Of a DNA stretch of 64,000 nucleotides, positions 28,779-35,810 are shown in pieces. How positions within the stretch are numbered: the first letter of the stretch is position 1; every line of letters begins with the position of its first letter. Below the pieces are notes generated by a model. It worked only from the letters and a program-made list of their open reading frames with translations. It made no database searches and was not told where the DNA came from. The DNA comes from Saprospiraceae bacterium (lineage in GTDB: Bacteria; Bacteroidota; Bacteroidia; Chitinophagales; Saprospiraceae): assembly GCA_030729925.1 (NCBI GenBank), contig JANQWK010000099.1, positions 1 through 64,000 on the forward strand. Reading direction: 5' to 3'. The position numbers were made by a program, and so were the translations under genes.

Positions 28779-29717
28779 TTACAGGGTTTTTAGCTCAGCC
28801 GCAAGTTGTGCAATGAAAGCAGGGTCTGTTCTGCAACATCCTCCTACAATGATAGGTCCCTGCTTCACCCAGCCGATCACGGTCTCCGCTAAATTTACTG
28901 CTTTGTGCTGATCTATCCAACATTTATTGGTACTATCCCAGCTTTCTCCCCGATTGGGATAAGCCAGCAGGGGCTTTTGGGTATGGTTGGCCATGTTGGC
29001 CAAAACCTGACCCGCAAGATCCGCGTTACAGCAGTTGACGCCAACAGCCAATACCGCATCTGACTGGTCGGCAAGGCGGAGGGCTTCCAATAAGGGCTCC
29101 CCACTGACCAAAGTGTCCGCAGTGCTGCAGCTCCAACTCAGCAGGGCGGGAATATCTTTGTACTTTTCCAGGAGTTCCAGATAGACCGCTGTTTCTACCA
29201 GATTGGGACAGGTTTCAAAGGCGAGGAAGTCTGGGCTTGCAGCCAAAAAAGCACATAGCCGCTCTTCGTGAAAATGGTATAGCGCTGCCTTGTTCACGGG
29301 ATAGTTTCCGGTATATTCAGCTCCATTGGCCAGGTAGGCGCCGTAAGGTCCAACCGATGCCCCAACGAGCGGGGTGTCCTCCAGAGACGGTCTGTCTGCT
29401 ATCCAATTATTCCTGGCCTCCATAGCCAGCCCAACCCCTTTTTCCAGGGTGGCAAGTGCCGCAGGTTTGTCCAGACCGTATCGCATAAAACCCGCTACAC
29501 TGGCCTGGTAAGTGCCACTCAGGATGAGATCCGCCCCTGCATTCAAATAGTCGGTGTGTACCTGCCGGACCAGCTCGGGATGCTCGATCAAAGCACGGGC
29601 AGACCATAACTCATGGTTCAAATCCAATCCATAGCGTTCCAGCTCTGTGGCAAATCCTCCATCCAAAATCAATACCTGCCGTTTGGCCAACAGCCTTTGC
29701 AAATCATTCATGCGCAT
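28779..29717 (-). CDS. mmuM: Homocysteine S-methyltransferase
   Basis: A 312-residue cobalamin-independent methyltransferase that makes methionine from homocysteine, usually with S-methylmethionine as donor. The barrel begins LILDGGFATELERYG, and the zinc-binding cysteines are visible in VGVNCCNAD and GGCCRTDP near the C terminus. I take the ATG at 29717, which overlaps the stop of the STN/repeat gene by one base (TGATG); an ATG at 29711 is also possible. The coupling to an ECF/FecR signalling gene is unusual for this enzyme. Whether this homologue prefers S-methylmethionine or another donor cannot be told from sequence. Confidence 0.88.
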   Translation of the reverse strand: MRMNDLQRLLAKRQVLILDGGFATELERYGLDLNHELWSARALIEHPELVRQVHTDYLNAGADLILSGTYQASVAGFMRYGLDKPAALATLEKGVGLAMEARNNWIADRPSLEDTPLVGASVGPYGAYLANGAEYTGNYPVNKAALYHFHEERLCAFLAASPDFLAFETCPNLVETAVYLELLEKYKDIPALLSWSCSTADTLVSGEPLLEALRLADQSDAVLAVGVNCCNADLAGQVLANMANHTQKPLLAYPNRGESWDSTNKCWIDQHKAVNLAETVIGWVKQGPIIVGGCCRTDPAFIAQLAAELKTL

Positions 29718-31369
29718 CAAAATCTTAGTCCGGCATTAAATCCAATCCAGAATTTCCGGTTGAGCCCCTGCTCGTCCGTCTCCTCGTACAAGGTATAGGG
29801 CACAAAAGCAGAACCATAGGTATCCGTTTCGGGGTCATACCTGCGGGAAAACATGAGATTGGCGGTAGGTCCCGCAAAAATGCCAAAGCGCCGACCCAAA
29901 CCTGCCTCCAGAAGGCAGCGAAATTGGTTCAACAGGTGCAAGTCATCAAACCACGGCCGGTCTTCCCGAATCTGTGCGCTGAGCAGTTCCAAATTGAGCA
30001 AATACCGTTTTCCCAGACGGGGAGCCGTACCAATTCCATAACCCAATCCCCAAAGATTGCCCTCCTTCCCGCTTCGCAGGCCGAGGTAAAAAATATTGTA
30101 AAACACCCGGGCTCCCGGCTTGATCGCTACCCCAGTGGTCAATAGTTCCCCCGTTGCAATTTCTATGCGATTGTAACCATTTTTGACCAAAGTCAAAAAA
30201 CCAAAAGGCATTCCCCCACTCACCGTTTCCGATATGTTCACCAATCCAAATTGAAATCCCCGAAGGACCGTTGAACGATTGAGCAACAGACTCATCTGCG
30301 CTTTTTCGACCTCCCTGGCGTGGTTAAACAGCAAGGCCAGCTGGGTGCGCACATCCCCCAATGCGATGTTGGTCAGCCCCGATACCTGTAAACCCGCAAC
30401 GTTGCCGGCGCTCCGGTTAAACAACCCGGCAGCCTGCAAACCGGCCACATTGCCCGAAGAGAGGTTAAACCCACCGGTCAGCTGCACAGCCGGACCACCA
30501 CCCGAATGGTTAAATAAAGTTGCAACCTGAATCCCGTCCACCTTGCCCCGACTCACATTAAAGACACCCGCAAACTGCATCCCCTGAACACTGCCATTGA
30601 CCATATTACCCACACCCGCCAATTGAAGCCCTACCACGTTTTTACGGATATGGTTGAGCAATCCACCTACCTCAAAGCCATTGACCCCGCCGTTGGTGCC
30701 CCAAACAACATTGACCGACAAGCGATTGGTCATGCGCTGACTGTTGAAAGCGTTGGTCCCTACAAATGGCAATAACGAAACCTGTGCCAAACGACTTTTT
30801 CCCTTCGATATGACCAATGCTATGCGCCGCAAGGGGTCGCGGACATCCCCGGCTACTACAACGGGAGCCGGCGTAGGTACCAAAGGCAATAAGTCGTTGA
30901 ATGGCGGCGGTCGCTTCATCAGGATCGCCAAACGTTCTGCAGCATCCGGTACCGGATACAGCGGCGACAACTGTGGCACCTCCGATGCCAAAGGCAGCAC
31001 CGGTAAAGTCCGAAAAGTGATTTTAGACAAGCGCCGCACATTTTTTTTCCGAAGGACAAATTGCGATTCTATTCGCGCAAAGGTGACCCCTACTTTATCT
31101 AACAGTTGTTCCAGTGCCACTTCAAATGTTGCACCGGCTGCCTGATGGGTCACTTTCCTGTCCACCGCAATAAAATCACTGCTATAGCTGAAATTTACTC
31201 CGTATGTACGCGAGATATCCGACAGTACCTCCTCCAGCTGGGCTTCTCGATAATCCCAATGGGCCAACGGACTCGCTTGGGCAAACAAAAATTGCCCTAC
31301 GATACCTACCAACGCCAATACTGCCAAGAGTCGGGTCAAAAACATAAGTGGCCGTGCTTTGGGCTTCAT
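29717..31369 (-). CDS. STN-domain protein with LA_2272-type surface repeats
   Basis: A 550-residue exported protein. After a signal peptide (MKPKARPLMFLTRLL..., ending FAQ) comes an STN domain (about 30-110; HWDYREAQLEEVLSDISRTY ... FSYSSDFIAVDRKV), the domain that contacts FecR in TonB-dependent signalling receptors. A linker (about 110-190) leads to roughly ten repeats of about 20 residues with the pattern GLQxAGxFNxxxGxVxG, which match LA_2272 surface repeats, and then a beta-strand-rich C terminus ending in phenylalanine (GFNAGLRF), as in outer-membrane barrels. No TonB plug or receptor barrel is present. The ATG at 31369 overlaps the FecR stop (ATGA). This strongly suggests it is the partner of the upstream ECF/FecR pair (inference). 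Confidence 0.82.
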   Translation of the reverse strand: MKPKARPLMFLTRLLAVLALVGIVGQFLFAQASPLAHWDYREAQLEEVLSDISRTYGVNFSYSSDFIAVDRKVTHQAAGATFEVALEQLLDKVGVTFARIESQFVLRKKNVRRLSKITFRTLPVLPLASEVPQLSPLYPVPDAAERLAILMKRPPPFNDLLPLVPTPAPVVVAGDVRDPLRRIALVISKGKSRLAQVSLLPFVGTNAFNSQRMTNRLSVNVVWGTNGGVNGFEVGGLLNHIRKNVVGLQLAGVGNMVNGSVQGMQFAGVFNVSRGKVDGIQVATLFNHSGGGPAVQLTGGFNLSSGNVAGLQAAGLFNRSAGNVAGLQVSGLTNIALGDVRTQLALLFNHAREVEKAQMSLLLNRSTVLRGFQFGLVNISETVSGGMPFGFLTLVKNGYNRIEIATGELLTTGVAIKPGARVFYNIFYLGLRSGKEGNLWGLGYGIGTAPRLGKRYLLNLELLSAQIREDRPWFDDLHLLNQFRCLLEAGLGRRFGIFAGPTANLMFSRRYDPETDTYGSAFVPYTLYEETDEQGLNRKFWIGFNAGLRF

Positions 31370-32358
31370 CGCGGGCAACCCGCTCCGGAAATGCGGTACA
31401 CCCCGTTTTGCTGAACTTCGTATTTTAAATCCATCGCCAGCGCAATCGCATCCAAGATATCCGTGACGCGTGGCGTGACAAAGGTACCGTAAAAATGGCA
31501 ATTTAGGATAGCGGGGTGGTCAACCTCAATCTCAATGCCAAAATGCTGCTCCAGGTCATGGACAACATCGGCCATGCGGGTATCCGAAAATACAAGGGTA
31601 TCCGATTTCCAGGACAACATATTGGCTTCCCGAATTTTCACCTCCTCCAAAATCGCCTGCTCCTTGTCGTATTTTCCGGCCATGCCGGCTGTCAATACCA
31701 TGGGCACAAGCACTTCGTCTGCTTTCCCCCAACTTACCGCCCCTTCTACCACAAACAATTGCTGCTCGGGTTCATCCGCATAAGCCCGCACGAGAAAACT
31801 CGTGCCCAGCACCCGAACCTGGGTTTCGCCACAAGCAATGATAAACGGGCGCGTCACCTGGCGCGTCACCTCAAAAAAAGCCTCCCCCGACAGCCGCACC
31901 CTTCGCTCGCGATCCGTTTCCACAAATTCCAGCCTGCTGCTGCCATTTAAGGTAACCACAGAACCATCCGATAACTCAAGGATCCTTTTTTCCGAAGGAG
32001 CAGTTTCCACCAAAAGTGTTGGCATCGCCACAGGTTCCACCACAAATTGCCGCAGCAGAAAAGCAAATACCACCAGAAAAAGCAAAGCAGCCGCCAACCA
32101 TAACAAGGGATGACGATGCAGGCGCAAACGGGGTTTGTCCACCGCAATACTTTGCTCCAGTCGCGCCCATGCTGCCGAAACATCTACCGGGGACGAAGGC
32201 GCGCTACTGCTGATCTCCCAAACCGCTTCCATGTCCTTCAGCAAGGTTCGGTTAGCCGCATCCTCCGACAACCAGGCACGCAGCTGTTGTTCTTCTCCGG
32301 GGGAAATATTTCCGGACAAGCGCTTAGCAATCAGATCGGTATAAAAATCCTGGTTCAT
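31366..32358 (-). CDS. FecR family anti-sigma factor
   Basis: A 330-residue inner-membrane protein. A cytosolic N-terminal helical segment (about 1-80; sigma-binding) is followed by one membrane helix (LLWLAAALLFLVVFAFLL, about 88-106), the periplasmic FecR domain (LELSDGSVVTLNGSSRLEF ... GEAFFEVTRQVTRPFII ... VLGTSFLVRAY) and a C-terminal STN-like DUF4974 domain (LVFSDTRMADVVHDLEQHFG). The ATG at 32358 is preferred over a TTG 15 bases upstream. It lies 48 bp after the ECF sigma gene and overlaps the STN/repeat gene by four bases. It should hold the sigma factor inactive until a signal arrives from the outer membrane. Confidence 0.92.
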   Translation of the reverse strand: MNQDFYTDLIAKRLSGNISPGEEQQLRAWLSEDAANRTLLKDMEAVWEISSSAPSSPVDVSAAWARLEQSIAVDKPRLRLHRHPLLWLAAALLFLVVFAFLLRQFVVEPVAMPTLLVETAPSEKRILELSDGSVVTLNGSSRLEFVETDRERRVRLSGEAFFEVTRQVTRPFIIACGETQVRVLGTSFLVRAYADEPEQQLFVVEGAVSWGKADEVLVPMVLTAGMAGKYDKEQAILEEVKIREANMLSWKSDTLVFSDTRMADVVHDLEQHFGIEIEVDHPAILNCHFYGTFVTPRVTDILDAIALAMDLKYEVQQNGVYRISGAGCPR

Positions 32359-32406
32359 GATCCCCTTTTTCAATTAAAGTATGATGCAAAATCAGGCAGG
32401 CTACCC

Positions 32407-32961
32407 CTATTCGGGCTTGTGCACATACCCATACATTTTTTCGCGAAGCAGACGCAAGGCCTTGCCCATTTGGTTTTCTACGGTCTTCACCGAAATCTCC
32501 AACGCATCGGCAATTTCCTGGTAACTCATCCCTTCAAATCGGCTCAAGCGGAAGATCAAGCCGCAGCGCTCCGGCAAAGATCCTATCGCCTGCTCGACCA
32601 ACAGCTGCAGTTCCCCATCCAACAATAAGTGATCCGGCTTTTCGGCGGCAGGCGCAGCCTGATCCAACGGCAGTTCATCGGAAAAAGAGATTTTCCTGCT
32701 GCGCAAAAAACCCAAAGCCTGATTCAGCGCCATCTTGCGGAGGTACGGCACCAGCGAAAAGCGGATGTCTATGTCGTGCCGCTTGTCCCAAAACCGAATA
32801 AAAACCTCCTGCGCCAGATCCTCTGCCACGGCAGTATCATTGACCACCCGCACAATCGTATGCAAAACCAGCGGATATACCGCCTCAAAAATTTGCTTCA
32901 AAGCCCGGGTGTCGTTTTTTTTCAGTGCCGACAGTAGCCTTTCCTCTTCTTTTGGTGTCAT
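32407..32961 (-). CDS. ECF RNA polymerase sigma-70 factor (FecI-like, Bacteroidota type)
   Basis: A 184-residue sigma factor. Region 2 is seen at VAEDLAQEVFIRFWDKR (about 46-62) and the region 4 helix-turn-helix at FEGMSYQEIADALEISVKTV (about 140-160), separated by a variable linker. This is the size and layout of the ECF group that works with FecR in Bacteroidota. It heads the minus-strand unit ECF-FecR-STN/repeat-mmuM-esterase. It is probably autoregulated, as usual for this group, but I did not identify its own promoter motif in the 139-bp divergent gap. Confidence 0.92.
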   Translation of the reverse strand: MTPKEEERLLSALKKNDTRALKQIFEAVYPLVLHTIVRVVNDTAVAEDLAQEVFIRFWDKRHDIDIRFSLVPYLRKMALNQALGFLRSRKISFSDELPLDQAAPAAEKPDHLLLDGELQLLVEQAIGSLPERCGLIFRLSRFEGMSYQEIADALEISVKTVENQMGKALRLLREKMYGYVHKPE

Positions 32962-33917: not shown

Positions 33918-35810
33918 CTAAAAACTCCACTGCACCCCAAACAGCAGGTTGCGCCCCAGGGAGGTAAATCCATAAACCTCCTGAAACTGCTGGTTACCCA
34001 TATTCTTGAGATCGAGATAGGTTTTTATTTTCCCCGGCAGGGGTTCCCAGGAAACATAGACATTCAGCAGGTTGTAAGCAGATAGTTCGACCGATTCCGC
34101 CGTGTAAAAGTTGGCGGGATTGAAAAACAAGTCCTGCCGATCTCCTATGTGCTGCCATTGTACGTCAAGGTTCCAGCGCCGACCCACCTGGTAGTTAATG
34201 CCCAAAGCCCACTGGTGTTCCGGCCGCCTGAACAGGTTGTTGTAGGTGGTATCCCGACCCGCCGCAAGGGGTGTCCGCACCTGCCCGTTCAGCCAGTTCC
34301 AGTTGACCCGAACCCGAACCCGCTCGTGTACGCGGGCCTGCGCATCCAGCTCCATCCCCCGGTCTTCCTGCCTGCTTTGGTTGAAAAACCCTTTGAAGTA
34401 GTCGTAGGCAATCAGGTTGCTAATGTCCCGCCGAAAATAGGCTACCTGGATGTAGAGCGGGTCGCCCGGAAAGGCATATTGAATCCCACTTTCAAACGAT
34501 TGACTGAGCTGTGGCTCAAGTGCGGGGTTGGCCCCAAATTGTCCGTAGAGCTGCGACAGGTTGGGCGCCTTGAATCCCGTGGTGTAACTGCCAAACAGCC
34601 GCCAGTCCTCGCTAAAATGGTAGTTGGCCGCAAAACTGACATTGTGGTTCCAGCCAAAACTGCTGTGGCGATTGACCCTGTACCCCGCTTCCGCGGAAAA
34701 AGGTCCCTTGCGCCGGAGCAGTGCACTTAGATACCCACTCCAAATATGGGCATCCGGATCGGCCTCCTGTGCCAAGGGATCTATCATTTTCAGGCGCTGC
34801 CCGTGGATACCCCCCATCCATTGCACCCAGTCTCCCGGAAGATACGACAACCACAAATCAAGCTGCTGCAGATAACCCCTGAAATCCGATACCCCCCATG
34901 CCGTTTCAAAGCGCCTGTCGGTATCCATGTGGCTGAGGTTCAACTTCCCCTCCAGCTTGTCCTTCTTGTAAGCCGCCGTCAACCCAGTATGGAACAACCC
35001 CGAAGCATAGGTGTTAGCAGCATCCGTAAATGCTCCGTCGTCAAAATCTCCCTCAAATTGCTGATCTCGGACGAATCCCCTGAAATTCAAGGCCTCCGTA
35101 GCTCGAAACCCCAGATCCACCCCCAACGAGCGCTGGGTAAATCCGTCGCGGTCAAATACCAGAGTCGGATCCTGATCCAACGCTTCCGACAAACCCTCCG
35201 TGCCACGGGATTCAAGGTCTGCTTTGTAATCAAAACGCCCCAAACGGCCGCGGACACCCCCGCCGGCCTGATAGCTGTTCAGCGAACCCCAACCCCCGCG
35301 AAGGTACCCGGCCAAAGGCTCCGCACTCGCCCCACGCGTCACCAGGTTAATCACCCCGCTGACGGCGTCCGACCCGTAAAGGGTAGAATGACTCCCCTTG
35401 AGAATTTCTATCCGCTCAAACTGACCCGCATTCAACAGGCGAAGATCTATCGCTCCCCCTACCCCCGATGCGTCCAACAAGGGCTGTCCATCAATCAAAA
35501 TTAAAGTAAACTCACTCCCCGCTCCCCGGATGTACAAACTTTTATCTTTGCCGGGGTTGCTGTATGCACCATTGACCAAAATCCCGGCCTCCTCCTGCAG
35601 AATCTGCGCCAGGTCCTTGCCGCTTTGCCGCTCCAATACCTCCCGCGAAATGATCGTGACCGGCTTGACCGTGGATCGCATGGCAACGGGTGTCTTGGAG
35701 TGCACCACCACGACCTCCTCCAATGCTATCGTATCCGCCTGCTGACTATGCGATAACTGCCAAAAAAATACTTGAAAAAATACCATGAAACATCGAATGG
35801 TTCGGCTCAT
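33918..35810 (-). CDS. btuB: TonB-dependent outer-membrane receptor, BtuB-like (cobalamin/corrinoid)
   Basis: A 630-residue outer-membrane receptor. A signal peptide (ending SHSQ) precedes a TonB-box-like segment (ALEEVVVVHSK), a plug domain (about 45-155; SLYIRGAGSEFTLILIDGQP ... RIEILKGSHSTLYGSDAVSG) and a 22-strand-type barrel ending in FGVQWSF. The assignment to B12 rests on the cobalamin riboswitch in its leader (35941-36100) together with a plug resembling BtuB. It should import cobalamin or a related corrinoid with TonB energy. The start codon lies in a hairpin (35806-35838) that may be the switch output. No BtuF/C/D genes are nearby in the window. Confidence 0.88.
   Translation of the reverse strand: MSRTIRCFMVFFQVFFWQLSHSQQADTIALEEVVVVHSKTPVAMRSTVKPVTIISREVLERQSGKDLAQILQEEAGILVNGAYSNPGKDKSLYIRGAGSEFTLILIDGQPLLDASGVGGAIDLRLLNAGQFERIEILKGSHSTLYGSDAVSGVINLVTRGASAEPLAGYLRGGWGSLNSYQAGGGVRGRLGRFDYKADLESRGTEGLSEALDQDPTLVFDRDGFTQRSLGVDLGFRATEALNFRGFVRDQQFEGDFDDGAFTDAANTYASGLFHTGLTAAYKKDKLEGKLNLSHMDTDRRFETAWGVSDFRGYLQQLDLWLSYLPGDWVQWMGGIHGQRLKMIDPLAQEADPDAHIWSGYLSALLRRKGPFSAEAGYRVNRHSSFGWNHNVSFAANYHFSEDWRLFGSYTTGFKAPNLSQLYGQFGANPALEPQLSQSFESGIQYAFPGDPLYIQVAYFRRDISNLIAYDYFKGFFNQSRQEDRGMELDAQARVHERVRVRVNWNWLNGQVRTPLAAGRDTTYNNLFRRPEHQWALGINYQVGRRWNLDVQWQHIGDRQDLFFNPANFYTAESVELSAYNLLNVYVSWEPLPGKIKTYLDLKNMGNQQFQEVYGFTSLGRNLLFGVQWSF

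Follow-up and report, generated by a model that had tools for sequence, protein, structure and literature searches.

The window analysed here is a 64,000-nt stretch of the genome of a Saprospiraceae bacterium (contig JANQWK010000099.1, C99 below), and all coordinates are positions in it unless a locus is named; L, C and G numbers denote loci, contigs of this same genome (its own genome) and genomes, respectively. The minus strand carries a row of genes for an extracytoplasmic function (ECF) sigma factor, a FecR-type anti-sigma factor, a 550-aa protein with an STN domain, internal repeats and a C-terminal barrel (the STN-repeat protein), a homocysteine S-methyltransferase and an esterase (Table 1). 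The sigma, FecR and STN-repeat genes probably form a cassette for a TonB-independent variant of cell-surface signalling (CSS). In the usual CSS model the receptor is also a TonB-driven importer; here STN and FecR are kept, and the plug and the transport barrel are dropped, so that signalling would be separated from transport.

Conservation and Linkage to FecR

A profile of alignment A1 was searched at E ≤ 0.001 against 199 family genomes and 395 phylum genomes, and matched in 163/199 and 184/395 of them. Many of these matches comprise the STN part alone of receptor-size frames (870 to 1250 residues); a single match spanning the STN and repeat parts was read from the match list in 56 of the 199 family genomes, and further ones are split. 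A subset of the matches was hand-picked, favouring strong ones (18 + 20 + 20 + 20 regions and five more), and a scripted survey of these loci yielded 55 STN-repeat proteins and 31 repeat proteins without STN.

Linkage was counted on the 51 STN-repeat genes with at least 1.1 kb upstream. A fecR gene lies within 300 bp upstream on the same strand in 47 of them (48 within 3 kb), and directly upstream of none of the 31 STN-less genes; the five STN-less genes with a FecR gene within 3 kb (L048, L137, L138, L143, and L149) are second repeat genes behind an STN-repeat gene. Judged from sequence, the cassette is conserved in relatives from several Bacteroidota families, and the fusion, which the original prediction described at one locus, is kept beside FecR there as well.

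Two loci of this survey are of separate interest. At L054 (5562–6482) a 306-aa STN-repeat gene has short matches to both parts, no FecR nearby and the motif described below 67 nt upstream. At L039 (4752–6005), an STN-less repeat/barrel relative without FecR beside it lies in a record titled Brachyspira (a spirochaete).

In a quick tree of the repeat domain (84 rows, as 2 of the 86 were too short to include), 7 changes of the STN label are required compared to 25.4 in shuffles, and the starred branches force 3. The partner label changes 3 times (15.2 in shuffles) in a FecR tree of 74 rows (49 beside an STN-repeat gene, 17 beside an STN-bearing TonB-dependent receptor (STN-TBDR), 8 not counted) and 3 times (13.9 in shuffles) in a sigma tree of 59 rows (35, 16, and 8, respectively); the shuffles show clustering alone, to which related rows contribute. 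The window FecR groups with L145, outside the main near-relative group.

These trees bear on the alternative that the STN-repeat protein is a mere sigma-controlled outer-membrane protein (OMP), its STN domain a relic, and that FecR is signalled by a TonB receptor. Five FecR matches were found in the own genome, of which three lie beside an STN-bearing protein of receptor size (889, 1144, and 1164 aa on C16, C32, and C26), one belongs to the cassette on C99 and one is a lone 234-aa frame near a contig end on C37. The three receptors favour this alternative, as do similar paralogue cassettes in relatives. However, the repeat proteins beside FecR keep STN whereas those elsewhere lack it, and the FecR genes as well as the sigma genes group according to partner type, making a relic STN domain improbable.

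Domain Organization and Predicted Structure of the STN-Repeat Protein

The strict GLQxAGxFN pattern occurs in 8 copies with a spacing of 15–16 residues; the repeats of the original prediction are present, and its count of about ten was slightly high. A Pfam scan of the 550-aa protein returned no Plug, TonB barrel or other domain such as the OmpA C-terminal domain, with the proviso that Plug was missed in one of five proteins of STN-TBDR size (L055); as a control in the same scan, the receptor at 33918–35810 scored 85.8 (Plug) and 122.6 bits (TonB barrel). FecR_C is also a weak match, below its curated cut-off. The predicted lack of a plug thus stands as far as Pfam reaches, and for the predicted lack of a TonB box no search was made. 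Since no plug was found, signalling without transport is likely. Scanning the own genome with NF047436, the model of the LA_2272 repeat, gave no match above cut-off. The protein terminates in G-L-R-F, and a C-terminal F is found in 54 of 86 repeat proteins. Within the otherwise variable linker (approximately 30797–31042 in the window), a Q-x-[ST]-P-x-Y motif occurs in 22 of 31 near-relative STN-repeat proteins.

An AlphaFold2 model built on A1 (16 sequences) has a mean predicted local distance difference test score (pLDDT) of 80.2 and a predicted template modelling score (pTM) of 0.56; pLDDT is below 50 at residues 112–148 and 150–189, and mostly above 80 in the C-terminal part from approximately residue 210. 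For the STN part, Foldseek retrieved the signalling domains of PupA and PupB and N0 domains of secretins, all at probability 1.00 (TMt 0.48–0.74; 0.61–0.74 for PupB, PupA and one secretin N0, with 0.74 for PupA 2a02); at E ≤ 0.001 it gave no match for this model or that of L148 (below). With VIA-align, residues 34–109 match N0/STN structures at Z 9.3–10.3, among them XcpQ (4e9j, Z 10.3, root-mean-square deviation (rmsd) 2.1) and chain B of 6ovm, a PupR complex (Z 9.4, rmsd 2.1). The predicted fold therefore agrees with the earlier assignment of the first domain to STN. A phmmer search of PDB sequences gave nothing meaningful.

Residues 398–550 are modelled as an 8-stranded barrel, in line with the barrel-like C terminus originally proposed, and match 6x9z (Z 13.4, rmsd 1.8), OprF (4rlc, Z 13.3, rmsd 3.0 over 122), NspA (1p4t, Z 13.0, rmsd 2.8 over 131) and OmpA (Z 12.1, rmsd 3.3). 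At approximately 150 residues and 8 strands, the modelled barrel looks too small for a transporter. Residues ~217–390 resemble β-solenoids, with Z ~13 but rmsd ~9.6 for LpxD/GlmU and Z 11.6 and rmsd 4.7 over 213 for the tailspike 6f7k; as the solenoid matches both tailspike (rmsd 3.2–4.7) and left-handed helix enzymes (rmsd ~9.6), neither handedness is favoured. The model of L148, an STN-less relative from another family (alignment A2, 20 sequences; pLDDT 89.0, pTM 0.73), splits likewise into a solenoid (tailspike, Z 12.2, rmsd 3.2 over 194) and an 8-stranded barrel (OprF, Z 14.2, rmsd 2.9). A larger barrel formed by the repeats was considered and set aside, the model and the VIA-align results favouring a solenoid plus 8 strands.

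Because the strand number is even and the last strand ends in the periplasm, the chain would enter the barrel from the periplasm, and the STN domain, linker and solenoid are therefore most likely periplasmic, with only the barrel loops outside. We weighed this against the possibility that the repeats are outside the cell, where they bind a surface or ligand, and that the protein relays the signal to FecR. The repeat model is indeed named “LA_2272 family surface repeat” (NF047436), and many cassettes contain genes for DUF2807, which annotation describes as a putative adhesin domain. In the model, however, the repeats lie between STN, which is to be periplasmic if it is to meet FecR, and the even-stranded barrel, and an 8-stranded barrel would have no known room to export a solenoid. 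On this topology the surface-exposed repeats of the original prediction were rejected, and external sensing by them is quite unlikely.

In the distant relatives L048, L051, and L142 a CarboxypepD_reg_2 domain lies between STN and repeats (below the Pfam cut-off in L048 and L142), and in the usual STN-TBDRs of the family this domain precedes the plug. The presence of CarboxypepD_reg_2 after STN in both protein types suggests that plug and barrel were swapped for solenoid and barrel.

A Promoter-Like Motif Upstream of fecR

The motif before the window fecR gene consists of a −35 part at 32404–32409, the TAG of which is the sigma stop codon, and a −10 part at 32383–32387; it is unique in the window, with 0.19 expected by chance. 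A de novo dyad search on 300-nt upstream stretches of near relatives (family f1 and Aureispira) recovered AGGGG-N16-GCATC before 15 of 29 fecR genes (maximum 3 in shuffles). The broader pattern TAGGGG-N15..18-[GA]CATC precedes fecR at 27 of 31 near-relative loci, at 0/17 other-family cassettes and at 0/24 FecR genes not beside an STN-repeat gene; the reversed pattern gave 0 in all three sets. Among the 27 loci the spacer is 16 nt in 22 and 15 nt in 5, and in 26 an A or T run lies at most 35 nt upstream of the motif. Of the remaining four near-relative loci, L035 and L041 have near-matches and L132 has a match lying 236 nt upstream; the fourth is L051. As seven loci (L040, L120, L122, L126, L130, L131, and L134) carry the motif with no sigma gene found next to FecR, its presence is not simply a consequence of the sigma stop codon. 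The sequence pattern would fit a sigma-dependent promoter; before near-relative cassette sigma genes it is found in 0/18.

Across 11 relatives, a stricter pattern gave 16 matches compared to 6 for the reversed control. After two sites with spacer 18 (L251 and L252) had been dropped, 10 of the 14 analysed precede an ATG, namely that of fecR (3), of genes with a GIN/DUF2807 domain (GIN, 3), of a CarboxypepD_reg/Plug protein (TBDRd, 1) and of others (3); the script did not pick up one fecR site (L260). The GIN and TBDRd copies are on contigs other than the cassette contigs.

In other families, the dyad TAGGGG-N15/16-TTGTC was found before sigma, TBDRd and cassette repeat paralogue genes. TAGGGG alone precedes 11/17 sigma (reversed-string control 0), 7/8 TBDRd (control 1) and 5/6 cassette repeat paralogue genes (control 2), 1/18 fecR, 0/6 GIN and 0/25 stand-alone repeat genes; it is joined by TTGTC in 7, 4, and 5 of the first three groups. 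The −10 part in these families is thus TTGTC, the near-relative −10 being absent before their 17 fecR genes.

Proposed Signalling Mechanism

Tentatively, we read these cassettes as a phylum-wide TonB-independent class, in which barrel, solenoid stalk and linker may bring STN to FecR for a readout of membrane state or ligand without transport, the −35 element TAGGGG being shared with paralogous ECF/FecR systems and the −10 element, [GA]CATC in place of [GT]TGTC, setting the class apart from them. The non-transport signalling of the original prediction is supported by an STN partner that is not a TonB receptor, by the linkage to FecR and by the STN fold; its surface repeats and its inclusion of the methyltransferase are not.

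Several observations weigh against the reading as a TonB-independent CSS variant. Four of the 51 STN-repeat genes have no FecR within 300 bp (none for L054, L135, and L146; 1682 bp for L133). Sequence matches of the 550-aa protein are sub-threshold, both for Pfam STN (3e-4, 20.9 bits, gathering score 28.4) and for the repeats with NF047436 (E 3.4e-4, 20.4 bits, cut-off 25). AlphaFold2 can over-predict solenoids for repetitive sequence, and the solenoid, which it may over-predict here, is the weakest part of the model. Inside near-relative cassettes the motif precedes 2/29 genes for small OMPs (OMP8, PF13505-like), 0/26 GIN and 0/7 TBDRd genes. In the own genome TAGGGG-N15..17-RCATC has 9 matches and the reversed control 16, so that the count is not above chance. 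Only the location of the matches is non-random, and it supports the CSS reading: 6 of the 9 (reversed 0/16) lie 5–110 nt before the ATG of an open reading frame (ORF) of at least 100 aa. The 110-nt limit, however, was chosen with the sites already known, and L249, the match at that distance, is located inside another ORF and probably due to chance. Finally, TAGGGG precedes 9 of the 24 near-relative FecR genes not beside an STN-repeat gene (reversed-string control 4).

In eight of these nine, TAGGGG is followed by [GT]TGTC. Three genomes (G017, G021, and G024) have an STN-repeat fecR with [GA]CATC and another fecR with [GT]TGTC, and in G002 the STN-repeat fecR has CCATC versus GTGTC. From these sequences the −35 appears common to a wider group of ECF/FecR systems in which the −10 differs, and the −10 element would keep paralogous systems apart. 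The nine genes themselves (L223, L228, L231, L233, L235, L236, L238, L239, and L240) point to a wider ECF/FecR promoter class.

According to the preferred reading, the barrel would anchor the protein in the outer membrane, and the solenoid and linker would reach into the periplasm, where the STN domain would dock on the STN-like C terminus of FecR and, as in FoxA/FoxR, shield it from cleavage. STN would be released when conditions at the outer membrane change, be it through a ligand at the barrel loops or through the membrane state, upon which FecR would be degraded and the sigma factor freed to transcribe from the motif promoters. The signal, the STN–FecR contact and the promoter activity are what we infer; by analogy, the protective FoxA/FoxR model, in which STN keeps hold of FecR as long as no signal is present, fits best.

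Candidate targets of the motif promoters would be fecR and the STN-repeat gene (feedback), small OMPs, DUF2807 proteins and the CarboxypepD_reg/Plug protein. Apart from L249, the own-genome sites near an ATG stand before fecR, before the gene of an OMP8 homologue on C42, before those of a 212-aa secreted protein and an ECF sigma on C60, and before that of a secreted esterase-like protein on C12; OMP8, which the window cassette lacks as a neighbour, is thus encoded elsewhere behind the same motif. At the C60 site (L248, C60:163256), TAGGGG-GCATC lies 31 nt before the sigma ATG, which raises the possibility of a sigma cascade. Because the promoter motif provides a reporter and a list of candidate targets, the system is directly testable.

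The same targets touch on another origin of the signal, namely barrel assembly or envelope stress. The barrel is of OmpA/OprF size, outer-membrane and secreted proteins make up most of the candidate targets, and the STN-repeat protein stands behind the same promoter motif as FecR, all of which suits such a signal; the loop between strands s7 and s8 is long and partly conserved, though, and would also suit a ligand. We regard stress sensing as rather unlikely, yet as the most plausible of the alternatives.

Cassette Layout and Accompanying Genes

Coordinates of the features are given in Table 1.

Table 1. Features of the cassette and its surroundings in the 64,000-nt window.
Feature	Position	Strand	Evidence
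ECF sigma factor, 184 aa	32407–32961	−	TIGR02985, Sigma70_r2, Sigma70 r4_2
ECF-type promoter-like motif TAGGGG-N16-GCATC before fecR	32383–32409	−	de novo motif search
FecR-type anti-sigma factor, 330 aa, ATG at 32358	31366–32358	−	PF04773, FecR_C
STN/predicted β-solenoid/8-stranded barrel protein, 550 aa, ATG start, whole gene	29717–31369	−	
STN (N0-like) domain, residues 34–109	31043–31270	−	Pfam STN below cut-off, fold matches
Linker, residues 110–191, mostly predicted disordered	30797–31042	−	low pLDDT
GLQxAGxFN repeats, predicted β-solenoid, residues ~192–397	30179–30796	−	
Predicted 8-stranded outer-membrane barrel, residues 398–550, terminal G-L-R-F	29720–30178	−	model
Homocysteine S-methyltransferase, overlaps STN gene	28779–29717	−	NF007020, 345 bits

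The gene row and its two junctions are as originally described: fecR and the STN-repeat gene overlap by ATGA (31366–31369), and the latter overlaps the methyltransferase gene by TGATG (29719–29715). The sigma factor matches TIGR02985 above cut-off (135 bits). FecR matches PF04773 (4.7e-17) and FecR_C (2.6e-13), has one predicted membrane helix and, in alignment A3, a C-terminal STN-like domain. Many FecRs of STN-repeat cassettes terminate in G-x-G-C or similar in this alignment and carry another cysteine within their C-terminal domain (N-C motif), so that a disulfide is possible; a G-x-G-C-like ending is also present in several STN-TBDR-linked FecRs, and not in others.

A methyltransferase gene follows the STN-repeat gene in just 1 of the 51 loci with at least 1.2 kb downstream. 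The overlap that led to its inclusion is real at the window locus, and the gene was rejected as a member of the system. On the same strand downstream (49 loci with at least 2 kb), GIN/DUF2807 genes are found in 30/49, OMP8 in 25/49 and TBDRd in 15/49. Six of the surveyed loci have an esterase gene downstream in the same orientation: L042, L116, L117, L130, L131, and the window (L057). Since L042, which also has the upstream TPR gene in common with the window, carries OMP8, TBDRd and GIN in the place taken by the methyltransferase in the window, we read the latter as a local replacement. In the own genome, DUF2807 genes occur at a distance from FecR, on C65 and C79. A TonB-dependent receptor with plug and barrel and without STN (33918–35810) is encoded on the same strand as the cassette, two genes upstream of it.

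Comparison With Known Systems

A literature search yielded no description of STN with LA_2272 repeats or of this cassette, most subscription papers being outside its coverage. Usual TonB-dependent systems are described in PMC9249621, and PMC9723704 is a promoter study of F. psychrophilum. For the ECF/FecR systems of Leptospira, PMC12155086 states that no Leptospira TonB receptor has an N-terminal extension, and leaves the outer-membrane partner open.

The LA_2272 family (NF047436) has a similar repeat, and its stand-alone, STN-less relatives in Bacteroidota are modelled as solenoid plus barrel; the repeats here score below the curated cut-off of that family, and the STN domain and the linkage to FecR are additions. 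OprF/OmpA-type 8-stranded barrels have the size and fold of the modelled barrel, whereas the periplasmic part here would be an N-terminal STN domain and solenoid. In contrast to β-helix autotransporters, which have a 12-stranded translocator, the C-terminal barrel is modelled with 8 strands in approximately 150 residues.

PUMA3 of Pseudomonas aeruginosa (VreA/VreR/VreI) likewise pairs an ECF sigma and its anti-sigma with an STN protein other than a TonB-dependent receptor (PMC2729926). According to the same paper, VreA lacks a barrel, occurs mostly as a soluble periplasmic protein and ends in a TolA/TonB-like domain, whereas the partner described here has a modelled outer-membrane barrel.

With CSS systems of the FecIRA/FoxIRA type the cassette shares the ECF sigma factor, a FecR with C-terminal STN-like domain, an N-terminal STN on the outer-membrane partner and the gene order, and paralogues of the usual type exist in the own genome. 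It differs in that the plug and large (22-strand) TonB barrel are replaced by a repeat solenoid and, as modelled, an 8-stranded barrel, and no transport is expected. PMC11637429 reports for FoxA/FoxR of Pseudomonas that STN docking keeps FoxR from cleavage, and its authors note that the way in which the signalling domain of FoxA bridges the periplasm is unclear. In the STN-repeat protein, the linker and solenoid could bridge it, and such a stalk would offer a simple way across.

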